From Candidatus Nitrososphaera evergladensis SR1 (GTDB lineage Archaea > Thermoproteota > Nitrososphaeria > Nitrososphaerales > Nitrososphaeraceae), in contig NZ_CP007174.1 of assembly GCF_000730285.1 (NCBI RefSeq), forward strand, positions 2,108,001 through 2,172,000: a stretch of 64,000 nt of DNA, in the 5' to 3' direction. This document shows positions 2,971-20,069 of the stretch, piece by piece. The position numbers were made by a program, and so were the translations under genes. Numbering within the stretch: the first letter of the stretch is position 1; each line of letters opens with the position of its first letter. Below the pieces are notes generated by a model, which was given only the letters and a program-made list of their open reading frames with translations, was not told where the DNA came from and did no database searches.

Positions 2971-5900
2971 GTTTCAATCCTTGTTGTGGTGGATTCGTCT
3001 TTCAGACACATGGAACGCAACGGTAACAGCACAAACGCCAGGTTTCAATCCTTGTTGTGGTGGATTCGTCTTTCAGACATTCTTTGCAACATACTGTGAG
3101 AGCCAAAGACACTTGGGTTTCAATCCTTGTTGTGGTGGATTCGTCTTTCAGACAGACAAGAATCTCCCAAAAAGCTCGTCATGGTTCAGGTTTCAATCCT
3201 TGTTGTGGTGGATTCGTCTTTCAGACGGAAGCGGCAAGGATCAGGGTCGCCATCGAAGACGCGTTTCAATCCTTGTTGTGGTGGATTCGTCTTTCAGACG
3301 CTTGGCAGATTCAATTTCCATATTTCCGCAACTCAGTTTCAATCCTTGTTGTGGTGGATTCGTCTTTCAGACTGCTGTCAACATTCTAGTGCGGGAGCGC
3401 CTAGAAGTTTCAATCCTTGTTGTGGTGGATTCGTCTTTCAGACAGGAATCAATGTCGGCAAGCCTGTAGCTCAAACAAGTTTCAATCCTTGTTGTGGTGG
3501 ATTCGTCTTTCAGACACAAAGAGATCAAGATGCCTCCGACACCCGAACTAGAGTTTCAATCCTTGTTGTGGTGGATTCGTCTTTCAGACTTCAACGACTA
3601 CACTGCATCAACAGGTAGACCAGAGTTTCAATCCTTGTTGTGGTGGATTCGTCTTTCAGACAAGCGTCTCTCCCTTGACAGAGCCGTTCATCTTGGTTTC
3701 AATCCTTGTTGTGGTGGATTCGTCTTTCAGACACGCGTACCCCGTCATGGCGCCTATCTGCCCCTTGTGTTTCAATCCTTGTTGTGGTGGATTCGTCTTT
3801 CAGACTCTTTCTTGTTGACTTCGGTGAAAGAGAGTGCTGAGTTTCAATCCTTGTTGTGGTGGATTCGTCTTTCAGACATCTCCTTGTTGACCGGAAAGTC
3901 GCCATAGAACGCGGGTTTCAATCCTTGTTGTGGTGGATTCGTCTTTCAGACTTGGGGCCAGTTCTGCCAGAACGTTGAGGCATTCGGTTTCAATCCTTGT
4001 TGTGGTGGATTCGTCTTTCAGACCTATCTTCTGCCATCTCAATAGCTCAGCTCCAGGAGTTTCAATCCTTGTTGTGGTGGATTCGTCTTTCAGACCTGCT
4101 ATCGTCAAAGTTCAAAGCAACCGTGTAGAGTTTCAATCCTTGTTGTGGTGGATTCGTCTTTCAGACGGCCAGAATCCCGCTAGAGCTGGTCGAAGTCAAG
4201 CAGTTTCAATCCTTGTTGTGGTGGATTCGTCTTTCAGACCGCGAGAATCAGGGGAAATTCTGACGAGGCCAAGACGTTTCAATCCTTGTTGTGGTGGATT
4301 CGTCTTTCAGACTTGCCCCTATTCCCTTCTCACGAGCAAGTTTGTAGTTTCAATCCTTGTTGTGGTGGATTCGTCTTTCAGACTGCGGCTCTTGCGGCGC
4401 TCTGATAGAGTGCGACAAGTTTCAATCCTTGTTGTGGTGGATTCGTCTTTCAGACACAAAGTCAGGAGTTTCCCATTCGTCCATGGGGATGTTTCAATCC
4501 TTGTTGTGGTGGATTCGTCTTTCAGACGTGTCGGTGTTGCTATACTGGCCATTGCGATCCTTGGTTTCAATCCTTGTTGTGGTGGATTCGTCTTTCAGAC
4601 GGCAAGTTTGAGCGCGAAGAAAAGCCGGTCGATTACAGTTTCAATCCTTGTTGTGGTGGATTCGTCTTTCAGACTGGTTAAAGAACCTCCCCCCCCTAAA
4701 ACCGAGTTTCAATCCTTGTTGTGGTGGATTCGTCTTTCAGACGGCAGGAAAAGGAGGGAAATAGAAAGGAGTAAAGGTTTCAATCCTTGTTGTGGTGGAT
4801 TCGTCTTTCAGACATTATCACTATCAACACGGACAACACCGTAGACGAGTTTCAATCCTTGTTGTGGTGGATTCGTCTTTCAGACGGCACAAAGACGGAC
4901 CTATCGGAAAAGCTTGGGATCGTTTCAATCCTTGTTGTGGTGGATTCGTCTTTCAGACTTCGTTGCGTCGGCGCGCCGTCAATAATGGCATAGAGTTTCA
5001 ATCCTTGTTGTGGTGGATTCGTCTTTCAGACACCACCAATCGAGAATGAGGTATCCCTTGTTATAGGTTTCAATCCTTGTTGTGGTGGATTCGTCTTTCA
5101 GACGATTCAGAAGAGGCTCACGACATCGCCGTTGAGCAGTTTCAATCCTTGTTGTGGTGGATTCGTCTTTCAGACACACCACGAGAGACAAGAACAACGA
5201 CGGGAAAAGCAGTTTCAATCCTTGTTGTGGTGGATTCGTCTTTCAGACTCCGAAATTGCGGGTATGGAGGTAGAGGCGGAGAGTTTCAATCCTTGTTGTG
5301 GTGGATTCGTCTTTCAGACCCAAAGGCGGAGGCAGATATTACAATAGAAAACAGTTTCAATCCTTGTTGTGGTGGATTCGTCTTTCAGACCGTAAAGGAG
5401 GTGTCCGAGTCGATAAACGTCTTGAGTTTCAATCCTTGTTGTGGTGGATTCGTCTTTCAGACACAATGTTTGCCCGCCGCAAGTCATTTATCAGGCTGAG
5501 TTTCAATCCTTGTTGTGGTGGATTCGTCTTTCAGACGACCCGCACAAACTACCAAAGGCTCCAAGGCTATGGTTTCAATCCTTGTTGTGGTGGATTCGTC
5601 TTTCAGACTTCTCGGTTGGCGGGTTTCCTGCTCCGCTGGCAACGGTTTCAATCCTTGTTGTGGTGGATTCGTCTTTCAGACTTTTCGGAACGGGTCAAGT
5701 CGCGCCCGATGATGACAGTTTCAATCCTTGTTGTGGTGGATTCGTCTTTCAGACGCACTATTTCCGTCGCTTCCGGTAGCTGTAATAAGTTTCAATCCTT
5801 GTTGTGGTGGATTCGTCTTTCAGACCTTCATTTACCAATGTGATAGCTCCTGCAGGAGAGGTTTCAATCCTTGTTGTGGTGGATTCGTCTTTCAGACTTG

Positions 5901-6547
5901 TAAACCTCCATTGTTTTACCGTAGGCGGTTTGTTTCAATCCTTGTTGTGGTGGATTCGTCTTTCAGACTCGATATGATATAGTCGGGGTTGCGTGAGACT
6001 GTGTTTCAATCCTTGTTGTGGTGGATTCGTCTTTCAGACAAAGGACGGCTGCTGCCTTGCGCCTCACTGATTCAGTTTCAATCCTTGTTGTGGTGGATTC
6101 GTCTTTCAGACTATTTTTGCGCTCAATTTGCCCGCAACCGTATGTGGTTTCAATCCTTGTTGTGGTGGATTCGTCTTTCAGACAATCTGCTCCCTCAGGA
6201 TATTCATCTCCTTCTGCAATGGTTTCAATCCTTGTTGTGGTGGATTCGTCTTTCAGACATCTATTGAAGGCACGAATCTTCTTCTATGACATTGTTTCAA
6301 TCCTTGTTGTGGTGGATTCGTCTTTCAGACTTGAATGCTTCGCTTCCGAAGGCGCCGACGTTCAACGTTTCAATCCTTGTTGTGGTGGATTCGTCTTTCA
6401 GACCGTATATCATTGTACTATTCGGTTTCGGGCACTGAGTTTCAATCCTTGTTGTGGTGGATTCGTCTTTCAGACATACAGGATAGTTCCACATTGCGGA
6501 CATGCCATGAGTTTCAATCCTTGTTGTGGTGGATTCGTCTTTCAGAC

Positions 6548-6728
6548 AGCCGGTGGAGAAAAACAACGAGTGGAGGACGAAGGGTTTCAATCCTTGTTGT
6601 GGTGGATTCGTCTTTCAGACACGAGGATTTCAATCCTGAGGAGTTCGTAAGAGAGTTTCAATCCTTGTTGTGGTGGATTCGTCTTTCAGACAAGCAAGCG
6701 GTAGACATGGCCAACGAGTTGAAAAATA
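6548..6728. repeat. Duplicated three-spacer block, copy 1
   Basis: Three consecutive spacers with their internal repeats, starting AGCCGGTGGAG, ACGAGGATTTC and AAGCAAGCGG, are identical to those at 9321-9501, exactly 2,773 bases away. The neighbouring spacers on both sides differ between the copies. Confidence 0.97.
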
Positions 6729-9320
6729 GTTTCAATCCTTGTTGTGGTGGATTCGTCTTTCAGACAATTGACGCCTTTTGCTCGGGCTCGGGCTTTAGGT
6801 GTTTCAATCCTTGTTGTGGTGGATTCGTCTTTCAGACGTAACGGGTCTTGCTACCAATTACGGAGAGGAGTTTGGGTTTCAATCCTTGTTGTGGTGGATT
6901 CGTCTTTCAGACAGTTGCAGTTCGAGGGCGTTCTCTTGTTCGTGAGTATAGTTTCAATCCTTGTTGTGGTGGATTCGTCTTTCAGACAGGATATCCACTA
7001 CTGGTACAGGTATGCCGCAAAGTTTCAATCCTTGTTGTGGTGGATTCGTCTTTCAGACTCGATTTTGGCCTTTCTGCTGCAGTGGACGTCCAGAGTTTCA
7101 ATCCTTGTTGTGGTGGATTCGTCTTTCAGACTCTAAAATCCGCGGTATAAGGACCATCGAGAAAAGTTTCAATCCTTGTTGTGGTGGATTCGTCTTTCAG
7201 ACAGGCAGTTGATCTTACGATTGGCGTGCACTACAATACAGTTTCAATCCTTGTTGTGGTGGATTCGTCTTTCAGACCTTTAGCGCCTCTCGTATCACTT
7301 CTTTGTTAAAGGTTTCAATCCTTGTTGTGGTGGATTCGTCTTTCAGACACTCTGCCCTGTGAAGCGAGATGATGCTGTCGACAAGTTTCAATCCTTGTTG
7401 TGGTGGATTCGTCTTTCAGACGATGGTGTCGTCGCCCTGCTTGTCCATGTTGGCATGTTTCAATCCTTGTTGTGGTGGATTCGTCTTTCAGACGACCAAC
7501 GACAGGGAATACTTTGACGACGAGGTTATGTTTCAATCCTTGTTGTGGTGGATTCGTCTTTCAGACACACAGATGGCACTCATGGCGCAGTCGGTGAATA
7601 TCGTTTCAATCCTTGTTGTGGTGGATTCGTCTTTCAGACATGTCAAGCCAGCGTTCCTTTATCATGCCCTGCAGCCCGTTTCAATCCTTGTTGTGGTGGA
7701 TTCGTCTTTCAGACTATGTTACGCAGTCAGATTTGGACGCAGGCACGAGTTTCAATCCTTGTTGTGGTGGATTCGTCTTTCAGACCGTAGTGTAGTTGGG
7801 CTGCTTGCCGTACTGGAAAGTTTCAATCCTTGTTGTGGTGGATTCGTCTTTCAGACTGTTTGTCTGTGCTTGATGTGCCTGTGGTGAGTGGTTTCAATCC
7901 TTGTTGTGGTGGATTCGTCTTTCAGACCATAAAAAAGAGGAGGAAATGGTGGAAAAATGAGGTTTCAATCCTTGTTGTGGTGGATTCGTCTTTCAGACAA
8001 TTCTTCTACCTGAAGAGGCCAGCCGAGCCGGGGCGTTTCAATCCTTGTTGTGGTGGATTCGTCTTTCAGACGCTCTTCCAGGAATGGATGACAAAGTACG
8101 TGGAGAGTTTCAATCCTTGTTGTGGTGGATTCGTCTTTCAGACTCAGGGAACAGCAATACCGCCAATGCCGCTGATGAGTTTCAATCCTTGTTGTGGTGG
8201 ATTCGTCTTTCAGACTATTGCTCGTGGCGGAAATCTGACTATTTACCTTTAGTTTCAATCCTTGTTGTGGTGGATTCGTCTTTCAGACAGAATGAGGACG
8301 AGCTGGCGCTTGCCTGCGCAGTTGGTTTCAATCCTTGTTGTGGTGGATTCGTCTTTCAGACCTTTTTCGATGTTGCCATGCCTAACTACTTGTAGTGTTT
8401 CAATCCTTGTTGTGGTGGATTCGTCTTTCAGACGGGTGAGCAAGTCGACATCACCCCTGCAGCGCGTGGTTTCAATCCTTGTTGTGGTGGATTCGTCTTT
8501 CAGACTCTACAGTGTCTTTTGTGTTGCTTCCAGTCGCGTATGGATTCTTAAGATAATGTTTCAATCCTTGTTGTGGTGGATTCGTCTTTCAGACGTTAAA
8601 AGCGACACAGAGAAGTCACCTTCTATCTAGTTTCAATCCTTGTTGTGGTGGATTCGTCTTTCAGACGAGTCCCAGTCCGTGCGGGGTGTTCGGGCCTTGA
8701 TGTTTCAATCCTTGTTGTGGTGGATTCGTCTTTCAGACCGTCCTTTTGTGGCGGGTCTTCAACCACTAGTTTTGGGTTTCAATCCTTGTTGTGGTGGATT
8801 CGTCTTTCAGACAGCACATTCACTTTGCGCTTGCGCTTCCGGAAGTTGGTTTCAATCCTTGTTGTGGTGGATTCGTCTTTCAGACAAGTTCCAAGTCACC
8901 AACGAACAGGGCTGGGTAACAAAGTTTCAATCCTTGTTGTGGTGGATTCGTCTTTCAGACGCAGCAAATCAATCTGTACCGATGCGATTTGTTGGTTTCA
9001 ATCCTTGTTGTGGTGGATTCGTCTTTCAGACTTCGGGAACCTTTTTGCTTGCGCCGTATTTGGTGGGTTTCAATCCTTGTTGTGGTGGATTCGTCTTTCA
9101 GACGCTATCTGTTATAACGCTACTTTCTAGTCATAAAAGTTTCAATCCTTGTTGTGGTGGATTCGTCTTTCAGACTACAGCAGGGACGAATCTTAGTGGA
9201 AAAATAGATTCGTTTCAATCCTTGTTGTGGTGGATTCGTCTTTCAGACTGTAACAAGCTGAAAAATCGTCTTTGTTATCTTTAGTTTCAATCCTTGTTGT
9301 GGTGGATTCGTCTTTCAGAC

Positions 9321-9501
9321 AGCCGGTGGAGAAAAACAACGAGTGGAGGACGAAGGGTTTCAATCCTTGTTGTGGTGGATTCGTCTTTCAGACACGAGGA
9401 TTTCAATCCTGAGGAGTTCGTAAGAGAGTTTCAATCCTTGTTGTGGTGGATTCGTCTTTCAGACAAGCAAGCGGTAGACATGGCCAACGAGTTGAAAAAT
9501 A
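9321..9501. repeat. Duplicated three-spacer block, copy 2
   Basis: Second copy of the block at 6548-6728, nearer the inferred leader. It is preceded and followed by spacers unrelated to those flanking the first copy. Confidence 0.97.
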
Positions 9502-10191
9502 GTTTCAATCCTTGTTGTGGTGGATTCGTCTTTCAGACAGCTTATGAGCAAGGACCCTAGACTTGAGCGCAGGGGTTTCAATCCTTGTTGTGGTGGATTC
9601 GTCTTTCAGACCAGGCATTCGTCTACGAATGCAGCTATCGGGTCCTGTTTCAATCCTTGTTGTGGTGGATTCGTCTTTCAGACGGATGGTGCAAACAACA
9701 AGACGATAAGAACGTCCTAGTTTCAATCCTTGTTGTGGTGGATTCGTCTTTCAGACGGCCATAGAACAAAGGTCCTTTATGTTTGGCTTCAGTTTCAATC
9801 CTTGTTGTGGTGGATTCGTCTTTCAGACTTTGCAGGCAACGGAAACGACAGCGTAGGCTCTAAGTTTCAATCCTTGTTGTGGTGGATTCGTCTTTCAGAC
9901 ATCTTTTGTCGTAGCTCTTCTTTGTTATAATGCGGTTTCAATCCTTGTTGTGGTGGATTCGTCTTTCAGACCCAGCAAGGGGCAAGACACAACTTTTGGA
10001 ATGGACCGGTTTCAATCCTTGTTGTGGTGGATTCGTCTTTCAGACAGTTTTAGGTTTAAGGTCTACGATGTTGTCTACAGAGTTTCAATCCTTGTTGTGG
10101 TGGATTCGTCTTTCAGACATGCTATCTAGCTTCATATCCTTGTATTTTTTCTTGGTTTCAATCCTTGTTGTGGTGGATTCGTCTTTCAGAC

Positions 10192-10297
10192 AGCGCCATA
10201 AATGCCCAGTTTTGTGCTCAAAACCGCAATTCTTGGATATGGAAAATCTGTTTTCATCACCGTTCTTCATTTTTATTGATTCATATATAAAGATCCG
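10192..10297 (-). promoter_or_regulatory. CRISPR leader and promoter, partly inside cas4
   Basis: Reading leftward, CTTTATATATG at 10292-10282 is a good archaeal TATA box. It lies within the last codons of cas4, about 90 bases before the first leader-proximal repeat. Transcription would begin near 10255-10260, leaving an AT-rich leader of roughly 65-80 bases. The short leader and overlap with cas4 are unusual but follow from the repeat orientation. The assignment is an inference. Confidence 0.6.
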
Positions 10298-10866
10298 GTA
10301 GGACATACCTTTCTGTATGTGCAGTCGAGACATTTACTGCCGTACTGTGCATTTGGGCTGATTCCACTTGTTATTATCTGCTTAACAGATTCTAACTTTT
10401 GCAAAGCAAAGTTTTTCAATTCTGATGTTAATCTAATTTCTCTTACTACTCGCTTTGATTTTTGAAAGATCACAAAAACACGAGTAACAGGCTTATTGCG
10501 ATTCTCCTCAAGCAAAATGGAGAGCAAGCCGATCTGAGCCTTCAAGCTGTCGGTTATCACAGTGAAATCAGTGTATTTTCTTTCAACCAGAATGATTTCT
10601 CTACTACTCTCGTAGGCTTCATCAATTTTTCCCGACAGACCTAACCGCGTCGAGTAAAGCTGCATTGCAACCAGCTTCTTTCCTCGTGCCAACTTTGGAA
10701 CATAGGTGGGATTGAGCTTTTCTGATCGAGTGTGTAGAGTGCGTCCGGCCATAACAGTACCTCTCTTTTCCTCATATTGACGTAACCCTAGAACCAAAGA
10801 ATAGTAGGTGAATTTAGGACAAAATGCATTCTCGACCACATCAGTTACTGTTATTAGATCTTTCAT
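10273..10866 (-). CDS. cas4: CRISPR-associated exonuclease Cas4
   Basis: This 197-residue protein is a RecB-like Fe-S nuclease. Cys16 (AFCPKF) and the C-terminal cysteines 179, 182 and 188 (KCLDC, VCPTG) supply the iron-sulfur cluster ligands. GKIDE and LVERKYT are the D and E-x-K nuclease motifs. Cas4 trims prespacers and selects their PAM and orientation for Cas1-Cas2. It is the last gene of the operon, overlaps cas2 by 4 bases, and its final codons carry the probable array promoter. Confidence 0.95.
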   Translation of the reverse strand: MKDLITVTDVVENAFCPKFTYYSLVLGLRQYEEKRGTVMAGRTLHTRSEKLNPTYVPKLARGKKLVAMQLYSTRLGLSGKIDEAYESSREIILVERKYTDFTVITDSLKAQIGLLSILLEENRNKPVTRVFVIFQKSKRVVREIRLTSELKNFALQKLESVKQIITSGISPNAQYGSKCLDCTYRKVCPTGSLYMNQ

Positions 10867-11162
10867 AGAACCTCAGCAGATCTTTTACCCGCGGCATATT
10901 GTCTATCAAATCCCTTCCCCACTATACTGATCCTGCCAAAACACTGCTCACACGTAAGAATAAGATAGAAAGAGTCCCGCTCATCAGCAATGACCTTCTT
11001 TATATCTTCGAGCAGGTCCTTCTTTTTCTGGTTTACAAGGGTGCCGCAGAAGGCACTTTTTTGTATTCTTATAAACCCTGCATTTTTTAGAATCCGTATG
11101 ACGTTTTTTCGAACTAAATCATCTGAAATGTCGTAGACTGCATAGTATGAGTTTCCTTTCAT
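10863..11162 (-). CDS. cas2: CRISPR adaptation protein Cas2
   Basis: This 99-residue protein matches the Cas2 ferredoxin-like fold: an N-terminal strand YYAVYDISDD with the conserved aspartate, the segment RIQKSAFCGTLVNQ, and DSFYLILTCEQC as a later core strand. It forms the dimeric centre of the Cas1-Cas2 integrase that inserts new spacers at the leader end. It overlaps cas1 upstream and cas4 downstream by 4 bases each (ATGA-type overlaps), so the three adaptation proteins are probably made together. Confidence 0.95.
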   Translation of the reverse strand: MKGNSYYAVYDISDDLVRKNVIRILKNAGFIRIQKSAFCGTLVNQKKKDLLEDIKKVIADERDSFYLILTCEQCFGRISIVGKGFDRQYAAGKRSAEVL

Positions 11163-12115
11163 GCTTCTTTATCTCCGCTGGTAAGCCTTTCTATTATTTC
11201 TCTGCAAAACCTCCAAGTTATCTTTTCCAGCTCTTTTCTGTTCTTCTCGCTGTAAGAGGTCAAAAGCGTCAGTCTGGCATCCTTTTTCAGAAATATACTT
11301 GAATCATCATTCTTTTCAAACCAGCGTTCTGAAACCATTTTCTTGTTAAACAGGCTCACGACCGTCCTGTCTATAAGTGGTCTTACCAACTCCATGAGGT
11401 CAAAGGAAAGTGTGGGTTTACCATAAGAGTCAGCATGGTAAAAGCCTGAATTTGGATCAAGACCTGACAGAATTATTATCTTTTCAACATCAGAATAGGC
11501 TATTCCGTAGGCATAATTTAGTAACGCATTAAAACCGTCTAGCGCAGGATACTGGCTTCTGTGTTCAAACGACCATTTGCTAGGTAGGCTTGAAGATATA
11601 GCGCGGAAGTATGCTGAAGCAGATGTACCTTCGAGTCCAAGAAGACTTTGTTTCACTCTGTTATCAGGTTGAAGCTTGCGGATCTGCAAGAGTGCATCTG
11701 ATATGATGTCAATTGCACGAGTGATTTCTGGAACATCAACTTTCCTGTTGTTCTTCAAGTCTTGCAAAAACTCCTTTTGCCTTTTGAGCTTTGTTCTGAC
11801 CAGCTCAATTGAGATCTGGACTCCCAATACCGTATCTTGGTTGGCATACTGTCTCCTACGCAATTCTGTACTCTTGCCGGCCGTACTCACCCACAGCCTT
11901 GCAACCGGTCTTCCTGCCCAGTCAGTCACAACGAGTTGAATATTCTTTTCAATGCATAATTTGATTGCCTGTGAGCTGATGAGTATATTGGCGCTTGTGA
12001 TTATAGCATCGACCTTTTCTGCAGGAACCTCAGATTTGCCATCTTCATTTTTTACTATGAACAGATCATTTTGACGTTTCAGGACTGATCCGTGACTTGA
12101 TATTTCGAGGATCAT
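11159..12115 (-). CDS. cas1: CRISPR integrase Cas1
   Basis: This 318-residue protein is a full-length Cas1. The N-terminal beta domain (MILEISSHGSVLKRQND) is followed by the alpha-helical catalytic domain with Glu162 (LLGLEGTSASAYF), His227 (GFYHADSYGKP) and the acidic pair around 239-242 (FDLMELVRP). Together these bind the metal used to join spacer ends to the repeat. The subtype resembles those of I-B/I-A loci. It overlaps cas6 by 4 bases upstream and cas2 by 4 downstream. Confidence 0.96.
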   Translation of the reverse strand: MILEISSHGSVLKRQNDLFIVKNEDGKSEVPAEKVDAIITSANILISSQAIKLCIEKNIQLVVTDWAGRPVARLWVSTAGKSTELRRRQYANQDTVLGVQISIELVRTKLKRQKEFLQDLKNNRKVDVPEITRAIDIISDALLQIRKLQPDNRVKQSLLGLEGTSASAYFRAISSSLPSKWSFEHRSQYPALDGFNALLNYAYGIAYSDVEKIIILSGLDPNSGFYHADSYGKPTLSFDLMELVRPLIDRTVVSLFNKKMVSERWFEKNDDSSIFLKKDARLTLLTSYSEKNRKELEKITWRFCREIIERLTSGDKEA

Positions 12116-12753
12116 ACAGCTTCAATCACCCCGAAACCCTTTGAAACGCTCTTGCCAAGACCAAAGAATCTAGGAAGATTTGTATTGACACTAAAGGAGG
12201 CTCTGAAGGCTTGAAAATAGTTCTCATGTACCTTGGCCGATTGTGGTCGGAAAGTTTCAAGGTTGGCAGTAACTTTGAAATTGACGAACACTGACAACCC
12301 CTTCAAGGCACTCAAGATGTTGCCCACAAGTATCTTTTCAAGGAATAACTTTCGTTTTCCGCCCTCAAGATCCTTAAATTTCCGGTAGTTTTCCTCGTTG
12401 AGAGCTATCCAAGGTGTAACAAATCTGAACCTTGATTTTGTTTCCTCGATAGAGAATGAGTCATTCACTATGTCCACGCTCTGTATGCTTATCTTGTCAG
12501 TTGGTGTAGTTATATGGTCAAGTGTGGATATCTTACGACATACAACTTCGGCATAGTCATTTAGACCCATTACCAAAAGCCGACCATGAACTTTCTTGTA
12601 CTGGACTAGCGGGTAATGATAGGAGCTTTCAGAGTGGTGATGAAATTCTGTGTCCTCCACAAACAGGTGCCCAAGAAAACCGCGCAGAGCTACTGATGAT
12701 ATGGTATTGTTCGGAACTTCAACATAAGCATAGCAGATCTTTATTTTATCCAT
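12112..12753 (-). CDS. cas6: CRISPR RNA endoribonuclease Cas6
   Basis: The ORF opens further upstream, but the ATG at 12753 (MDKIKICYAYVEV) is preferred: it starts at a beta strand and overlaps the cas3 stop by 13 bases. The resulting 213-residue protein ends in FFGLGKSVSKGFGVIEAV, the glycine-rich loop that marks Cas6 proteins. Cas6 cuts the array transcript within each repeat, here probably leaving an AUUGAAAC handle. Several histidines near residues 37-45 could be catalytic. Its place between cas3 and cas1 is less common than a position at the operon head. Confidence 0.85.
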   Translation of the reverse strand: MDKIKICYAYVEVPNNTISSVALRGFLGHLFVEDTEFHHHSESSYHYPLVQYKKVHGRLLVMGLNDYAEVVCRKISTLDHITTPTDKISIQSVDIVNDSFSIEETKSRFRFVTPWIALNEENYRKFKDLEGGKRKLFLEKILVGNILSALKGLSVFVNFKVTANLETFRPQSAKVHENYFQAFRASFSVNTNLPRFFGLGKSVSKGFGVIEAV

Positions 12754-14936
12754 TTGTCTAAGCCTACCTCCACGTCGTAAACGTCCTGCAGACAACCCTT
12801 TTTGGGAATAAGGATGCCCCTTTCTAGGAGTTCTTGGTCGAGATAATCTCTTACAAGCTTCACTGAAGAGGCCGAAATATTCGCGGTTAGAGCAGAGTAA
12901 GACTTGAACGATCTTCTGTCGATTCTTTGTGTTGATTTTAGCGCTTCAGATATCTTTTGCAAGTCTTGCTCAGCTTCAGGCACTATCATGGAGTGTCCTT
13001 CGTCTGCAAATACGTGATTGTTCACAAATCTCGAAACATCCTCAAAATCCATGTCACGAATTAAGCGGTCAAGCTCTTCTATTCTGTCTGCATTCTGCAT
13101 GTTCTTCACAGATACTCGCTCATAGTAACTGTCAAGTTTGTCATACAATTCCTTGGAATTCTTCACTTTTTTCAGTATTTTCAGCGATTCCTGATACTCC
13201 AGCTCGCTGTACGGTAGGTAATCCGAATCCTTCTGGAAAATGAAAAGCATGGGATTCGTTGCTTCACCTTCACGATTGAGACGCCCCATAACTTGCACAA
13301 CGTTATCTAGGGGAGCGACTTCGCGGTATACTTCAGCAAAGCTCACGTCAACTCCTGCTTCCAGCACCTGAGTAGAAACTACAATCACATTTTTTCCTTT
13401 TTCTTTGATCTTCTGAATGATGTCGCTGCGAGTCTTCTTTCTTATGCCCGAGGTTACATACAGCGACTGGTGACCATTCTGCGACATTTCATAAAAAACC
13501 TCCTTTGCTTTTTTTCGTGTATTTAACATGACAAGGATTTTTCTATCAATCCTCACAGGAGGCTGAAAACGGGTCATGAACCTAATGTTTTTCAGAGTCA
13601 ATCTATGATACGTTTCTGACAGTGTTTGAGGGACTCGTGTAATTGGAACATTGTTGGACAGTTCATAAGGAATAGTTGCACTAACCAAGAGTGTCTTTGA
13701 GTTCATTTCTTGGCATATTTTTTGCAGCATCTTGATAAAATTTGGTAGAAGAAACTTTGGTACGACCTGTATTTCATCAACTATCAGTAACGCATTGCGT
13801 AGAGAAGCAAGTTTCATCTTATCGGATACGGAGTTAAAATAGAGTATCATCAAAAGTCTCTGGGTTGTTGATATGACAAACTTGCTGTGAAATGACTCAT
13901 TTTCAAAGTTATAGCCAAGGCTTTCCAATGTACGGCTCTCACTCAACTTGCTTGCAAGACTGCCTGCAAAGAGATGGTTGTAGACGAGGATCTCATCAAG
14001 TGCTTGTTGATCTAATACATCTTTTATTTTGCTCTCAAAATCTTCAGTTAATGCAAGCAATGGAGAAAAATACATAACACGTTCTATTCCATGTATATTC
14101 GAATATTCGTTTATAAGGTCCAGAAAGACCTTTGTTTTTCCCATTCCAGTGGGTGCATTAAGCACCGACACTGGCGCAGCAAAGTCATGGGTGCTAGCAA
14201 ACCACTGCTGAAACTCTGTGCGGAGTTTTGAAAGTCCTGATGTTGTGTTAACTAGTCTGTTGGTGCTCATGCGCAAATCGTATTTGATATCCTGCCGTTC
14301 GGAAAAGCTTCCCCTGTCCGCTTGAAGCAAGGCCGAGAATATCATACAAGCTTCAATAAAGTCGCGTACAGCGTCTCCGGAGAGTGATTGTAGCTTGTTC
14401 TCAAAGGACATTGGTCTTGCAAATTTTGAAAGACATTGATCCCAGTCAAGCGTAGAAAAGTGTTGTGTGTTAGCCATTGCTCCTTTAAATTTTGCAAGGT
14501 TTTCAAGTAGACCTTGCTTAGTCCTTTTCATGCGATCTGTTTGATCTTCATTTTGTATTTCGTTTGAGAGATGTGAATGATGGGCCGCTATGACACAGAG
14601 CACGAGTTGTAATTGATTTGAATCTAGTTCATCGGCTAGTAGCTTTTCTGCAGCCCACGCAGAAAACAAAGCATGTTGTCTTTCGTATTTGGACTCTAGA
14701 TCGTCTTCAATTAACCTTCTTTTTTCATCTCCTGCCTGAAAAAGCTCTTGATAAAATGGATTAAGTTTGCCTATATCATGCAGGAGGCCCGCGTAATATG
14801 CTAGTTTGCAGCTTTCAAACCGCGTTTTGCGTACAATACCTTCTGCAGAAGTTGCCACTCGTATCAAGTGCTCATCAAGTGGTTTTCCGGGATGCGATAG
14901 AAAAGTGTCAGTAGAAACAGACAACTTTTCCACCAT
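12741..14936 (-). CDS. cas3: CRISPR nuclease-helicase Cas3
   Basis: This 731-residue protein fuses an HD nuclease and an SF2 helicase. The HD motif is His53-Asp54 in LLHDIGKLNP, with further histidines at 88 and 119-120. Walker A lies at about 261-268 (APTGMGKT), the DExH box is DEIQ at 387-390, then VSATIPYEL (motif III), STQVLEAGVDVS (motif V) and QVMGRLNREGE (motif VI). It degrades DNA marked by Cascade. It overlaps cas5 by 29 bases upstream and cas6 downstream. All key residues appear intact. Confidence 0.97.
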   Translation of the reverse strand: MVEKLSVSTDTFLSHPGKPLDEHLIRVATSAEGIVRKTRFESCKLAYYAGLLHDIGKLNPFYQELFQAGDEKRRLIEDDLESKYERQHALFSAWAAEKLLADELDSNQLQLVLCVIAAHHSHLSNEIQNEDQTDRMKRTKQGLLENLAKFKGAMANTQHFSTLDWDQCLSKFARPMSFENKLQSLSGDAVRDFIEACMIFSALLQADRGSFSERQDIKYDLRMSTNRLVNTTSGLSKLRTEFQQWFASTHDFAAPVSVLNAPTGMGKTKVFLDLINEYSNIHGIERVMYFSPLLALTEDFESKIKDVLDQQALDEILVYNHLFAGSLASKLSESRTLESLGYNFENESFHSKFVISTTQRLLMILYFNSVSDKMKLASLRNALLIVDEIQVVPKFLLPNFIKMLQKICQEMNSKTLLVSATIPYELSNNVPITRVPQTLSETYHRLTLKNIRFMTRFQPPVRIDRKILVMLNTRKKAKEVFYEMSQNGHQSLYVTSGIRKKTRSDIIQKIKEKGKNVIVVSTQVLEAGVDVSFAEVYREVAPLDNVVQVMGRLNREGEATNPMLFIFQKDSDYLPYSELEYQESLKILKKVKNSKELYDKLDSYYERVSVKNMQNADRIEELDRLIRDMDFEDVSRFVNNHVFADEGHSMIVPEAEQDLQKISEALKSTQRIDRRSFKSYSALTANISASSVKLVRDYLDQELLERGILIPKKGCLQDVYDVEVGLDKWIK

Positions 14937-15657
14937 CCTGCAAAGAATAATAGGACGATAGCTTGGGCTTTTCTGAAATTCTTACCTCATAAGCTGAACC
15001 TCTTGCCGGTATCCAGTGTCTGAGAACACGCCTTTCCAGCTTTTCGTTTTCAAAGAAATGGTGAAGATGTCTTTCTATTATTATGCGAGAATTATCGTTC
15101 ACTGGTTCGGCAGTTACAGAGAATCGCGTATTGTACGTTTCAGATTCGTCGAGGATTACTGATGAAGTTTCAAATTTGCGGCCGTCAAATACAGCTATTT
15201 CTTGCATCTTTGCGTCAGAAATTCTTGCAGGACAGTATGCATGCCCAAGGTATGGTGGATATTTGAAATCATTCTCCTTCAGAGCTGCATAAAGCGTGTC
15301 CATGATGGAATCATCAGTCTTGACATAGATTCTGTATGATGGTGAGACCAAAACTTCTGTTTTGAATGGTTTGGTCTTTGGTTCCTTAAGAGACCTATGA
15401 TTGGTAAAGAAGGAAATTTTTCTCGGATCGGACTCTAGCTCCATTCCGATCTTTGTCTTCTTAAACAGTTTGATATAATCACCACCGTAAATCTCCCCAA
15501 GTGAGTGATCTCTTTCCACTCCCAGAATCGCTCCAAGTAGACCTATCACTGCGCTCTTGGAAGGTATGTAATATACGGTCTGGTTTGACGTTACAGAAGG
15601 ATCTCTAAATGCAGCAAACTCGCCAGAGATGCAAAATGATACGATGCTGTTTAGCAT
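14908..15657 (-). CDS. cas5: Cascade subunit Cas5 (type I-B)
   Basis: This 249-residue RAMP-type protein starts with the Cas5 signature: ISGEFAAFRDPSVTSNQTVYY, then PSKSAVIGLLGAILGVER. It caps the 5' handle of the crRNA in the surveillance complex. YPPYLGHAYCPARI and the C-terminal beta segments fit Cas5b/Cas5h proteins. It overlaps cas7 by 7 bases and cas3 by 29, implying coupled translation. Confidence 0.92.
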   Translation of the reverse strand: MLNSIVSFCISGEFAAFRDPSVTSNQTVYYIPSKSAVIGLLGAILGVERDHSLGEIYGGDYIKLFKKTKIGMELESDPRKISFFTNHRSLKEPKTKPFKTEVLVSPSYRIYVKTDDSIMDTLYAALKENDFKYPPYLGHAYCPARISDAKMQEIAVFDGRKFETSSVILDESETYNTRFSVTAEPVNDNSRIIIERHLHHFFENEKLERRVLRHWIPARGSAYEVRISEKPKLSSYYSLQDGGKVVCFY

Positions 15658-16601
15658 TCGACTTCATGTACGGGTATTTGTTTGGATCGCAGACGCGATA
15701 GGAGTAATTTGACATCTTCGCGTATGTCATCGCATGAAGCTATCTTCACATTCTTCACACGTGACTTTCTTTCCACTAGTGTACCTATCAGGCGTTCAAA
15801 GTCAAATGGAGACTTTGAAAGTCCAGTCGCAAACTGTTTCATATCTTGAGACTCGTTAACTAGCACAGGCAGATCATTATATGATGTCGAGTCATACGAA
15901 ACTTCGATGTAAAGTATGCTACGCTGAGGGAATTTGGAGCGTGTGACAAGGTTGTTGGTGCCCTTCCAAAGACATTCAAATAGTTTTTCTTCAACCTTTT
16001 CAAAACGGTTTCTCGCTTCGTTATCGCTGTAGTACTTGCCAAGGTTCATCGGATTGATTGCCCCGTGTACCTTCAACAGAGCATATTCAACAGAATAGAA
16101 CTTGCCAAATGTCGAATATTGCTTCTCTTGACCTTCGTTCTTCTTGCCGACAAATCTTCCTGATATTGTTGGATTTATTATTCTGACCTTGTTCACGCTT
16201 CTGCCTAGTCCAAACTGCACGGGACCTGTGAGTTTATGAGAATCCCCGCCTCCATCCTCTCCTTTATCAGACCTGACAGTTACAAGTGCCCCAAAAAGAG
16301 GCGCGTCGAATGTCAATTGTATCAACTCTGCGATAACATCTTTGCCCTTTATGTTACCTATTATCTCCTTAGCTCGCTGGTCGGCCGTAACGGCATTGCC
16401 ATCTTTATCGTAATCGACAAACAATGTCTCACCAAGAACATCTCTAGCATAATCGCGTATAGTCCGCTTTATTCGGACATCGGTTATTAGGATCGTGTCA
16501 TCAGGCATAAGACGAGGCTGGTTTTCAAATCCAGGATCGCCATTTGGATTCTGCCTTGATTCATAGTAGAACAATATCTCTTTGTTGATGTTCTTTGTCA
16601 A
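15651..16601 (-). CDS. cas7: Cascade backbone subunit Cas7 (Csh2 family)
   Basis: This 316-residue protein carries the Csh2/Cst2-type signature ESRQNPNGDPGFENQPR near residues 15-31, followed by TDVRIKRTIRDYARD and LTGPVQFGLGRSVNKV. Cas7 polymerises along the crRNA spacer and forms the spine of Cascade. The NPNGDP motif is typical of subtype I-B. It overlaps cas8b by 4 bases and cas5 by 7. Confidence 0.94.
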   Translation of the reverse strand: MTKNINKEILFYYESRQNPNGDPGFENQPRLMPDDTILITDVRIKRTIRDYARDVLGETLFVDYDKDGNAVTADQRAKEIIGNIKGKDVIAELIQLTFDAPLFGALVTVRSDKGEDGGGDSHKLTGPVQFGLGRSVNKVRIINPTISGRFVGKKNEGQEKQYSTFGKFYSVEYALLKVHGAINPMNLGKYYSDNEARNRFEKVEEKLFECLWKGTNNLVTRSKFPQRSILYIEVSYDSTSYNDLPVLVNESQDMKQFATGLSKSPFDFERLIGTLVERKSRVKNVKIASCDDIREDVKLLLSRLRSKQIPVHEVEC

Positions 16602-18313
16602 GTTTGAGCCTCCTTTTTCATACCTACATCTTTGCTAAAGTAGCCCTTGTAGAAAAAGTACGAATAATCATTGTACGCAGAATCGTCACTTATTTCTGCA
16701 GAGGGTTGATTGCTTCGGATGAATGATTCCATTTTCTTTATTTTATCTTCAGGAGCTTTTGATAGGCTCAGACCAAGACCTATTCGCTGCATCACAAAGC
16801 GAAGCTTCTCCCTATCATACCTAGAATACGCAAGGATATCACGAAGTGAGTTGCTAGATTCTTCCACATTCTCTTTGAATTTGATATACTCTGCAGCAAT
16901 GACCCCGACTTTGTGAGCGTATTCTTCATTATCATCCATGAGATAACCCTTGCCTTCATTTCGTTGAACATCCTTGCATAAAACTTTTATGCAAAAGTCG
17001 CTCTTACTGAAGAACTGCATGGGTTCTTCTCGGACTTTTTTGTCAAGCCAATTAAACATGTTTTCACGCAATTGCAAAACAAAGCGTGAAAGCAGATAGT
17101 GCTTGTCTATTTTCTTTTTTGCCAGCAGACTTCTGACCGCCGACAGGTAATGTGTCCAGATAGTAGTTTTCCCTCTTGTTTCGATGAGAACTTCTAGAGC
17201 ATGGAATGGAATGTGGCTTCCATCTTCGATTCTAGCAAATATCTCTTTCATATCCTCCATCGTCAGGTTTTCATCAAGCATCACCTCCATCTTTGCTTGG
17301 GAAGTCAAATAGCAAAGTACCTTGAGATTGGATCTGCCTTCCTGTCTATGGCTTTCTTTGTCCAGATCTTTGTAATTTCTCCATAGCTGGTAGTATATTC
17401 CATTCTTAGTATTATTGAAATGATAGCTGGGTTTGGCCGTGTTGGTAAACATCCACTGGAGGCCGGCTATGCGGAATACATCTATTGTATTGATGTTGAC
17501 CAGACGATGCGATTCCGTACCTATAGACAAATTGCGGTAAAACCTCTCACCATCAGAGCAATTGATAGCAAATGCAGGATCGTCATATGAAAGGAATTTA
17601 GCGGTGATTGTAGTTTCTTTTGCAAAGCTTTTTGTCTTGTTACCAAATGAGTCGGTGAAACTCTGCCCTGCATCGCTTTCTTCATCAGTAGAACGGTATT
17701 CCACCTCACCATCCTTTGGGAGAACTAACAGTGAGAAATTGACCACCTTATTTTGTATTCTATCTTCTTGCCAGCGTGACCTGACATGTTTGAAGAATAC
17801 TTGGCAGATTCTCTTGAAGAGAGTGGAGCTGAATTTAGAGTCTTTTGTGATTACTCTGGATCGTACATATTCATCATAGAGATTCTTGCCTGAAATAAAA
17901 TACCTCTCCTTGTCTATGTTCAGGAAGATGCTATTCTTGGCCACGATCCGCTCCTTTTTGGTTTTCAAATTCAGTTCCGCAATAAATGATGCAGCGCCCT
18001 TGCCCATCTCAAGTGAGATTATTGGACCTGCTTTAATATGCTGAAACTGTCCGTAAAGTTCAACATATGGCCTCGGAGAATTTGGACTGGTAGTTCTGAA
18101 CCGGAGTCCCAAGCGGGGGGCAGTATTAGAAGGCATAGAGAAGAGCACTTGAAATGACTTGTATTCTTCAAGTGGTTCACCATATTCCTGCAAGGTCTTT
18201 TTATCCAGTGTAGGACTCATTCCACGCATTATCACTTTCTTGACCGGTTTCGGGCTCTTTACAAACTCCCCCTTGAAGCTTCTGTTTCTCAAATAGAGTT
18301 CATGAGCAAGCAA
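16598..18313 (-). CDS. cas8b: Cascade large subunit Cas8b (Csh1-like)
   Basis: This 571-residue protein is assigned mainly by context: it is the first gene of the operon, directly before Csh2-type cas7, with the size of Csh1/Cas8b large subunits. The family is poorly conserved and no catalytic motif is expected; its role is PAM reading and Cas3 recruitment. The start is TTG at 18313-18311; an in-frame TGA sits just before it, so no upstream start is possible. A T/A box about 30 bases upstream fits a leaderless message for the whole operon. Confidence 0.82.
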   Translation of the reverse strand: MLAHELYLRNRSFKGEFVKSPKPVKKVIMRGMSPTLDKKTLQEYGEPLEEYKSFQVLFSMPSNTAPRLGLRFRTTSPNSPRPYVELYGQFQHIKAGPIISLEMGKGAASFIAELNLKTKKERIVAKNSIFLNIDKERYFISGKNLYDEYVRSRVITKDSKFSSTLFKRICQVFFKHVRSRWQEDRIQNKVVNFSLLVLPKDGEVEYRSTDEESDAGQSFTDSFGNKTKSFAKETTITAKFLSYDDPAFAINCSDGERFYRNLSIGTESHRLVNINTIDVFRIAGLQWMFTNTAKPSYHFNNTKNGIYYQLWRNYKDLDKESHRQEGRSNLKVLCYLTSQAKMEVMLDENLTMEDMKEIFARIEDGSHIPFHALEVLIETRGKTTIWTHYLSAVRSLLAKKKIDKHYLLSRFVLQLRENMFNWLDKKVREEPMQFFSKSDFCIKVLCKDVQRNEGKGYLMDDNEEYAHKVGVIAAEYIKFKENVEESSNSLRDILAYSRYDREKLRFVMQRIGLGLSLSKAPEDKIKKMESFIRSNQPSAEISDDSAYNDYSYFFYKGYFSKDVGMKKEAQT

Positions 18314-18335
18314 TCATTTGGACTGCATATGCCAT

Positions 18336-18345
18336 GAAATTAAAC
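18336..18345 (-). promoter_or_regulatory. Candidate promoter of the cas operon
   Basis: Read leftward, GTTTAATTTC lies about 25-32 bases before the cas8b TTG start. Together with the 156-base gap after the integrase gene, it suggests the eight cas genes are transcribed from here. Confidence 0.45.
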
Positions 18346-18469
18346 ATTTTCATTGACATTCTGTTATTGTTGATCCGGATGGGTTAGACGTAATAATCGA
18401 TGCTCGCATAGGTAAAAGCAAACCGCAGGAGTTTACAATACCTTATTCAGTGTAACATTGCATTGTAGT

Positions 18470-19816
18470 CTAGATTATGATTCTTGCTGTGCCAAGATCC
18501 AAACTATCAAACTTGACATGTACAGACTTTGCCACTTGAGCCTTGATATGCTCTGGAATGCCGCCATAGCATTTGTTCAATACTTCAGTATTCTCCCATC
18601 CACCTAGACTTGCCACATATGCAAGTGACCAGTTTGTTGCTGCCAAATAGTACTGAGCCATAGTATGCCTAAAGAGATGCAATGGATGTCCTGTAAAGTA
18701 TAATCCATCACCCAGTGCGTATATTCTAGTCTTTTCGTTGAGCCAGCTTGCTTTGTCAAGTTCTCCAAATATCTTTTTGAATTTGACGGCCATCTTGTGC
18801 ATGAAATAACTGGCTTGCAAGCAGTTTGCTTTATCACTCTTAGCATCTTCAAAAAACAAGAACTTCCTGCATTTTGGCAAACTATCATAGGCTATTTCAA
18901 CAACAGCTCTGCATTCTTCAGTTGGATACTTGACCCACCACTTGCCTTCTTTGTCAAGATACCAATCTCCTCTCTTTGTTTTAGACTCAAACTGTTCTAC
19001 TCTGAACAAAGGTGAGAACGCGATCCTATCGCGGCTCATAGATGCCATTGCAAATGCTCTAGCTCCTGTGTGTAGATCAATGTTCATAAAACTCCAAGAA
19101 TCCCAATCATTTTCATTCTCTAGCTTTTTGTTGATTCTGTATATTTGCTCCGGTGTTAGCAGGATGTCTTTGTACTCTCCAAGTCTTTCTGATGTTGTAG
19201 ATAGCCCGTACCTCTTGCCTTCACCATGAGCAAAGTTAATGTTATGAGCTGCAAGGAAACTGCGATAAGCATTAATGGTGTTTGTCTTTTGCATTTGAGG
19301 ATATGCGGTATTGAACCACGCCAAGAAATTCTGCCAATATTCTATTGCTATTTCTTTGCGCTTTGTCGCGTCGATTGGTACGCCATAGCTAACGAGTGTT
19401 TCAGGCATCACCTTTAGCTGATTCGATATTCCATGAATTACATTTGCAAGGTGATTGATTCTGTTAGCAGGTATTGCGCCTGATTTCAAAAATGTTACCC
19501 ATTTCTGAATTGATGGCAGCTGGTTGAACGGTTCGTTTTCTAATTTCTGGTATCGTCGAGCTATCTGCTTTTGCAGAGATATGACGATGTTCCCATTAGC
19601 ATCTCGCTTTATTCCCCACTTGCCATCTTTTTCCATCTCTGTTAGATAACGTGAAACAGTACTGTGATCCTTGCCTACGTCTACACCAATGTCTCTGGTG
19701 GTATAGTTGCCATTTTGGATGCTGATTGTAATAGCTTCCTTGATCTTTTCCTTGTCTTTGACTTTCAGACCCTTAACCCGTAAACGGCTCTTTCTTTGTA
19801 CAAATGTCTGAGCCAC
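18470..19816 (-). CDS. Tyrosine recombinase / archaeal integrase
   Basis: This 448-residue protein ends in a tyrosine-recombinase catalytic domain: Arg253 (LHTGARAFAM), His380-x-x-Arg383 (HLFRH), Trp407 (LGGWEN) and the probable nucleophile Tyr417 (NKCYGG). The N-terminus has a helix-turn-helix-like segment near residues 40-60 (TRDIGVDVGKDHSTVSRYLTE) that may hold arm-type sites. The start is GTG at 19816. Such enzymes integrate and excise genetic elements. It lies directly upstream of, and parallel to, the cas operon and next to the switch to GC-rich core genes, so it probably marks the island edge. No matching direct repeats were found in the window. Confidence 0.88.
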   Translation of the reverse strand: MAQTFVQRKSRLRVKGLKVKDKEKIKEAITISIQNGNYTTRDIGVDVGKDHSTVSRYLTEMEKDGKWGIKRDANGNIVISLQKQIARRYQKLENEPFNQLPSIQKWVTFLKSGAIPANRINHLANVIHGISNQLKVMPETLVSYGVPIDATKRKEIAIEYWQNFLAWFNTAYPQMQKTNTINAYRSFLAAHNINFAHGEGKRYGLSTTSERLGEYKDILLTPEQIYRINKKLENENDWDSWSFMNIDLHTGARAFAMASMSRDRIAFSPLFRVEQFESKTKRGDWYLDKEGKWWVKYPTEECRAVVEIAYDSLPKCRKFLFFEDAKSDKANCLQASYFMHKMAVKFKKIFGELDKASWLNEKTRIYALGDGLYFTGHPLHLFRHTMAQYYLAATNWSLAYVASLGGWENTEVLNKCYGGIPEHIKAQVAKSVHVKFDSLDLGTARIII

Positions 19817-20069
19817 TAGGTGTCCATCCTCTTGATTGTAAAGTCACCTAGAACTAATGCCAGTGACGTGGTAGGGGGATAGATATACCATATTACAAAT
19901 AATAAAGTCGGAAAAATTGTTAGTGTTACTTGATAATTGCTGAAGAAAATGTTTAGCAATTGTATATTTTTGAGGCTAGTTTGAAGCTCCGCGCCTATGC
20001 AACAAGTTATGCAACGCTTTTGGTGCATTAGACGCTAGTAGGAAGCGATATTCTCAAATAATTAATCAA
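19817..20069. other. Island boundary, intergenic
   Basis: This AT-rich gap separates the integrase gene from the GC-rich lipid reductase gene. Read leftward it holds an AAAATATACAA box near 19960 that could serve the integrase. A 70-codon ORF here overlaps the integrase start by one base and has no family features. An attachment site is expected here but no tRNA or tRNA fragment is visible. Confidence 0.4.

Follow-up and report, generated by a model that had tools for sequence, protein, structure and literature searches.

The single CRISPR array of Candidatus Nitrososphaera evergladensis SR1, an ammonia-oxidising archaeon from soil, contains a block of three spacers that is present twice, letter for letter, at positions 38 units apart. 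Recombination at the repeats, whatever the route taken, most probably made the duplication (probability of about 0.9). The array lies within the window, by which we mean the whole stretch of 64,000 nucleotides that was analysed, and positions are counted from its first letter. The genome consists of one contig of 2,954,373 bp. The available text of the genome report describes a single CRISPR locus, 7,220 bp long and made up of 99 repeat/spacer units (PMC4084955). The features of the locus are as follows.

2971–10191, minus strand: CRISPR array in which 100 copies of an invariant 37-nt repeat alternate with 99 spacers (96 different sequences); probably transcribed leftward
2971–6510, no strand assigned: older section of the array, with the 49 leader-distal spacers 1–49, the oldest by polarity
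6510–6766, no strand assigned: leader-distal copy of the identical tract, holding spacers 50–52 (6548–6728) and equal to 9283–9539 over 257 bp
6766–9283, no strand assigned: interval between the copies, with 35 spacers (53–87), none of which recurs elsewhere
9283–9539, no strand assigned: leader-proximal copy of the identical tract, holding spacers 88–90 (9321–9501)
9539–10154, no strand assigned: the nine leader-proximal spacers 91–99, the newest by polarity, the leader side being taken from the N. viennensis alignment
10192–10272, minus strand: leader, which adjoins the last repeat, precedes cas4 and aligns with the flank of a solitary repeat of N. viennensis
10273–10866, minus strand: cas4, an acquisition gene (Pfam and NCBIfam matches)
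10863–11162, minus strand: cas2, an acquisition gene (Pfam and NCBIfam matches)
11159–12115, minus strand: cas1, an acquisition gene (Pfam and NCBIfam matches)
12112–18313, minus strand: cas6b, cas3, cas5 and cas7 (Pfam/NCBIfam matches), and a 571-aa protein

Spacers 50, 51 and 52 (6548–6583, 6621–6654 and 6692–6728; 36, 34 and 37 nt) are identical to spacers 88, 89 and 90 (9321–9356, 9394–9427 and 9465–9501). The identical tract, which takes in the flanking repeats and, at either end, a single base that agrees by chance, spans 257 bp, and the starts of the two copies are 2,773 bp apart. The borders of the block coincide with whole repeat-spacer units, the junction repeats are intact, and identity stops one base beyond the flanking repeats. 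The neighbouring spacers are unrelated on both sides (49 versus 87, and 53 versus 91). The coordinates and the unrelated neighbours given in the first-pass annotation, which had described the block, are thus exact. In the whole genome the block occurs twice, with no further copies. The same annotation had proposed a check for further repeated spacers, and none, even approximate, emerged when each of the 96 distinct spacers was compared with every other, the sole similarities being short and at chance level (best E 0.013). This is as expected if just three units moved. Two spacers in the array are of unusual length, namely spacer 77 (8506–8557; 52 nt) and spacer 24 (4675–4705; 31 nt), the remaining ones measuring 34–38 nt; spacer 24 includes eight consecutive C, whose number may have been misread in sequencing.

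Sequence comparison places the leader on the right side of the array, beside cas4-cas2-cas1, because the right flank aligns with a leader remnant in N. viennensis and the left flank does not. The local alignment of the right flank with the sequence beside the solitary repeat of genome G042, which we take to be N. viennensis, has a score of 49, as against at most 31 in 200 shuffles, whereas the left (trailer) flank scores 29 against the neighbourhood of the same repeat, which is not above chance. The minus-strand repeat terminates in ATTGAAAC, which crRNAs of such systems usually carry as their 5' handle. The leader remnant and this repeat end together point to leftward transcription. Read from the leader, the array thus comprises nine spacers (99–91), the block (90–88), 35 spacers (87–53), the block again (52–50), and 49 spacers (49–1).

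The array is adjoined by a type I-B gene set, comprising cas1, cas2, cas4, cas3, Cas5 and Cas7 of the I-B kind and Cas6b; the best subfamily models of Cas5 and Cas7 are the I-B ones, with scores below the curated cut-offs. The 571-aa protein (16598–18313, minus strand) occupies the place of the large subunit (Cas8), has no Pfam or NCBIfam match, and is possibly a diverged large subunit. A study of integrated mobile elements assigns, in its available text, a type I-B array of the SR1 genome, together with cas genes, to the integrated element NitEve-E4 (PMC6563490). Since the genome has one array only, that system, with its adjacent I-B cas genes, is presumably the locus described here. The duplication is not mentioned in the available parts of PMC4084955 or PMC6563490.

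Chance, or two independent acquisitions, cannot yield 107 identical spacer bases with the same order and lengths. The claim of the first-pass annotation that independent acquisition is very unlikely is borne out by the identical order, lengths and sequence of the three spacers. It is scarcely credible that the three spacers were acquired twice from one invader, which is untenable given their identical order, lengths and ends, or that a virus or plasmid brought them in as a mini-array. Small arrays can be carried by mobile elements of archaea, and a viral contig contains a coding-level relative of spacer 52. Against an import, the exact repeat was not found in viral contigs, and a search with the block and its repeats matched no phage record and gave one weak partial match among plasmids (72% identity over 38% of the query, E 0.005). 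No match to phage records was found for spacers 1–54.

The relative of spacer 52 was the one candidate protospacer recovered by a coding-level pattern search of viral contigs with the block spacers. It agrees in 27 of 37 bases, the first 20 being nearly identical, and lies in a 678-aa open reading frame of an IMG/VR contig (L032, 514–2550, minus strand), with which the translation of spacer 52 has KQAVDMANEL in common. The encoded protein has no Pfam match and appears tape-measure-like by eye. The putative viral relative is a lead only. Outside the block, spacer 61 (7349–7384) matches the host recombinase gene radA (G000:C1, about 1578373) in 32 of 36 bases, and radA of a related genome (G029) in 33 of 36; no match to it was found in viral contigs. 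As it encodes VDSIISLHRAE, which differs from the host IDSIISLHRAE, this spacer looks like a piece of radA from another archaeon or element rather than self DNA.

Mis-assembly is unlikely. The genome was assembled, according to the available text of its report, from PacBio reads with a mean length of 4,117 bp at about 179-fold depth (PMC4084955), and the mean read length thus exceeds the 2,773-bp spacing of the copies. Random off-register stretches of the array (14 units, about 1 kb) have a mean identity of 73% and a maximum of 74%, or 77% when aligned on the block, and are too dissimilar for a false overlap of corrected reads. There remains a small chance of an assembly error, or of a merging of two array variants of the culture: the SR1 genome was assembled from an enrichment, and the published assembly checks consisted of PCR of selected regions, among which this array is not named in the available text (PMC4084955). 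However, a shared block would not normally be written twice by a merge. A stretch of 10 repeat-like bases inside spacer 51, TTTCAATCCT, was considered as a cause of misalignment and rejected, as shuffled sets contained matches of at least 9 bases in 12 of 50 cases and of 10 bases in 1 of 50, and the stretch had been picked post hoc.

In a survey of 60 regions centred on cas1, drawn from genomes of the phylum to which SR1 belongs, displaced multi-spacer blocks were found in two of the approximately 69 other arrays with at least 10 spacers (the parser listed one array twice). These involve five spacers displaced by 20 units (L048) and two spacers displaced by 30 units (L080). Both resemble the SR1 case in that a multi-spacer block is repeated at a distance with unrelated neighbours, and differ from it in size and shift. 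Tandem multi-spacer blocks occur in L046 (2 spacers), L048 (5) and L056 (12), and single-spacer copies, tandem or displaced, in several of the surveyed arrays. L048 (4177–7489) combines a five-spacer tandem with the five-spacer displaced copy, and the 12-spacer tandem of L056 lies at 10811–19999. In the literature, 3.3% of spacers are duplication candidates, 86% of which are simple duplications (PMC11472070). Repeated blocks are viewed as duplications that arise through recombination or replication misalignment between repeats (PMC8047081; PMC11472070). The SR1 block is like the duplicated blocks of these two studies in having the same spacers in the same order within one array, with unit precision, and in being read as a duplication rather than a re-acquisition. 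By contrast, it is displaced by 38 units instead of being in tandem, and no other duplication occurs in its array, which is long and has invariant repeats. Displaced block duplication is hence uncommon but not new, and is an ordinary sign of array recombination at identical repeats.

The exact 257-bp identity, with junctions inside repeats and all 100 repeats identical, was counted in favour of copying by recombination. In the proposed mechanism, three repeat-spacer units of the type I-B array would have been copied elsewhere in the same array while DNA was being replicated or a break repaired, probably in one step, by template switching or recombination at the identical 37-nt repeats. Since every repeat could pair with every other, a strand might begin copying at one repeat and rejoin at another; alternatively, and also in one step, an excised three-unit circle could have re-inserted into a sister copy. 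The outcome would be the insertion of whole units with seamless repeat junctions. The first-pass annotation had suggested copying by recombination or array conversion, with flanking units lost or replaced afterwards. The copying is upheld by the identical spacers bounded by perfect repeats, but the later loss is an unneeded step that belongs to the tandem-then-loss route discussed below, since one non-tandem copy or one unequal crossover at identical repeats gives the observed order.

Among the routes, a one-step non-tandem copy is our tentative preference over the two rivals that follow, at somewhat under even odds. It requires two strand switches, and tandem duplications are commoner in the survey; both points were counted against it. 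The same order could have arisen, with a lower probability that makes it an unlikely though serious candidate, by fusion of two sister arrays through a single unequal crossover. Two lineages would have shared spacers 52 to 1, after which one gained spacers 91–99 and the other spacers 53–87. A crossover would then have joined the first array, at the repeat past its spacer 88, to the leader-proximal part of the second, so that the leader-side border of the block would mark the split of the lineages, and the other border the crossover. Such a fusion, a single event, would account for the unrelated neighbours on both sides without any subsequent loss, and agrees with a leader on the right. Moreover, the presumed location on NitEve-E4, as described in the available text of PMC6563490, might bring diverged arrays together. 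On the other hand, it requires two array genotypes in one cell, and no sister arrays of this kind were found in the searches described below. Because all the repeats are the same, the junctions bear no trace of the event and the route is unreadable from them; between a non-tandem copy and a sister-array crossover, each a single event, the sequence alone cannot decide. We lean to the non-tandem copy since arrays are reported to recombine with one another only rarely (PMC11472070).

A large tandem duplication of at least 38 units, followed by separate losses until three units stayed double, is improbable. Other arrays of the phylum do contain tandem duplications (of 2, 5 and 12 units), and deletions of blocks are often described in the literature (PMC11472070). 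Nevertheless, only 0.3–6.5% of such histories (the figure varied with deletion length and array size) gave one contiguous displaced three-spacer block in a simulation that halts once three or fewer spacers remain double and serves as a rough guide. Most of the simulated histories left scattered duplicated spacers or none, and scattered duplicates are absent from this array.

The search for sister arrays covered 70 genomes of the family, together with genome and viral contigs. The exact repeat was not found in the genome and viral contigs, a set from which records very near the SR1 genome may be left out. Allowing up to three mismatches, the repeat was detected among the 70 family genomes in two, N. 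viennensis (G042) and G034, as solitary repeats with no shared spacers. No spacers are shared with the 70 genomes, the exceptions being matches at chance level and that of spacer 61 to radA, and no relative holding the block just once was found in either set. The solitary repeat of N. viennensis (L011, 1501–1600; G042:C1, about 1816637; also L105) has two mismatches, a related leader and no array. Directly beyond it lies an interrupted transposase-like gene. From these sequence features, it looks like a collapsed array. The solitary repeat on G034:C51 (L010, 1450–1486) has one mismatch and no leader similarity. A tRNA-like sequence is located about 0.9 kb from it, the 3' end of which, CCACCGGGCCCGCT, recurs directly past the repeat, and the site is perhaps the remnant of an integrated element.

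For the biology of SR1, the duplication means that the spacers of this array do not follow a simple chronological order, and that ages based on position need care. If the block were the result of a fusion, the one array would hold two separate infection histories. Beyond the caveat on order and a built-in deletion test, the block is a further instance of a process that is already known. As to that test, the 257-bp tract should now favour the loss of the 38 units between its copies, which would delete 2,773 bp and leave an array of 61 spacers.
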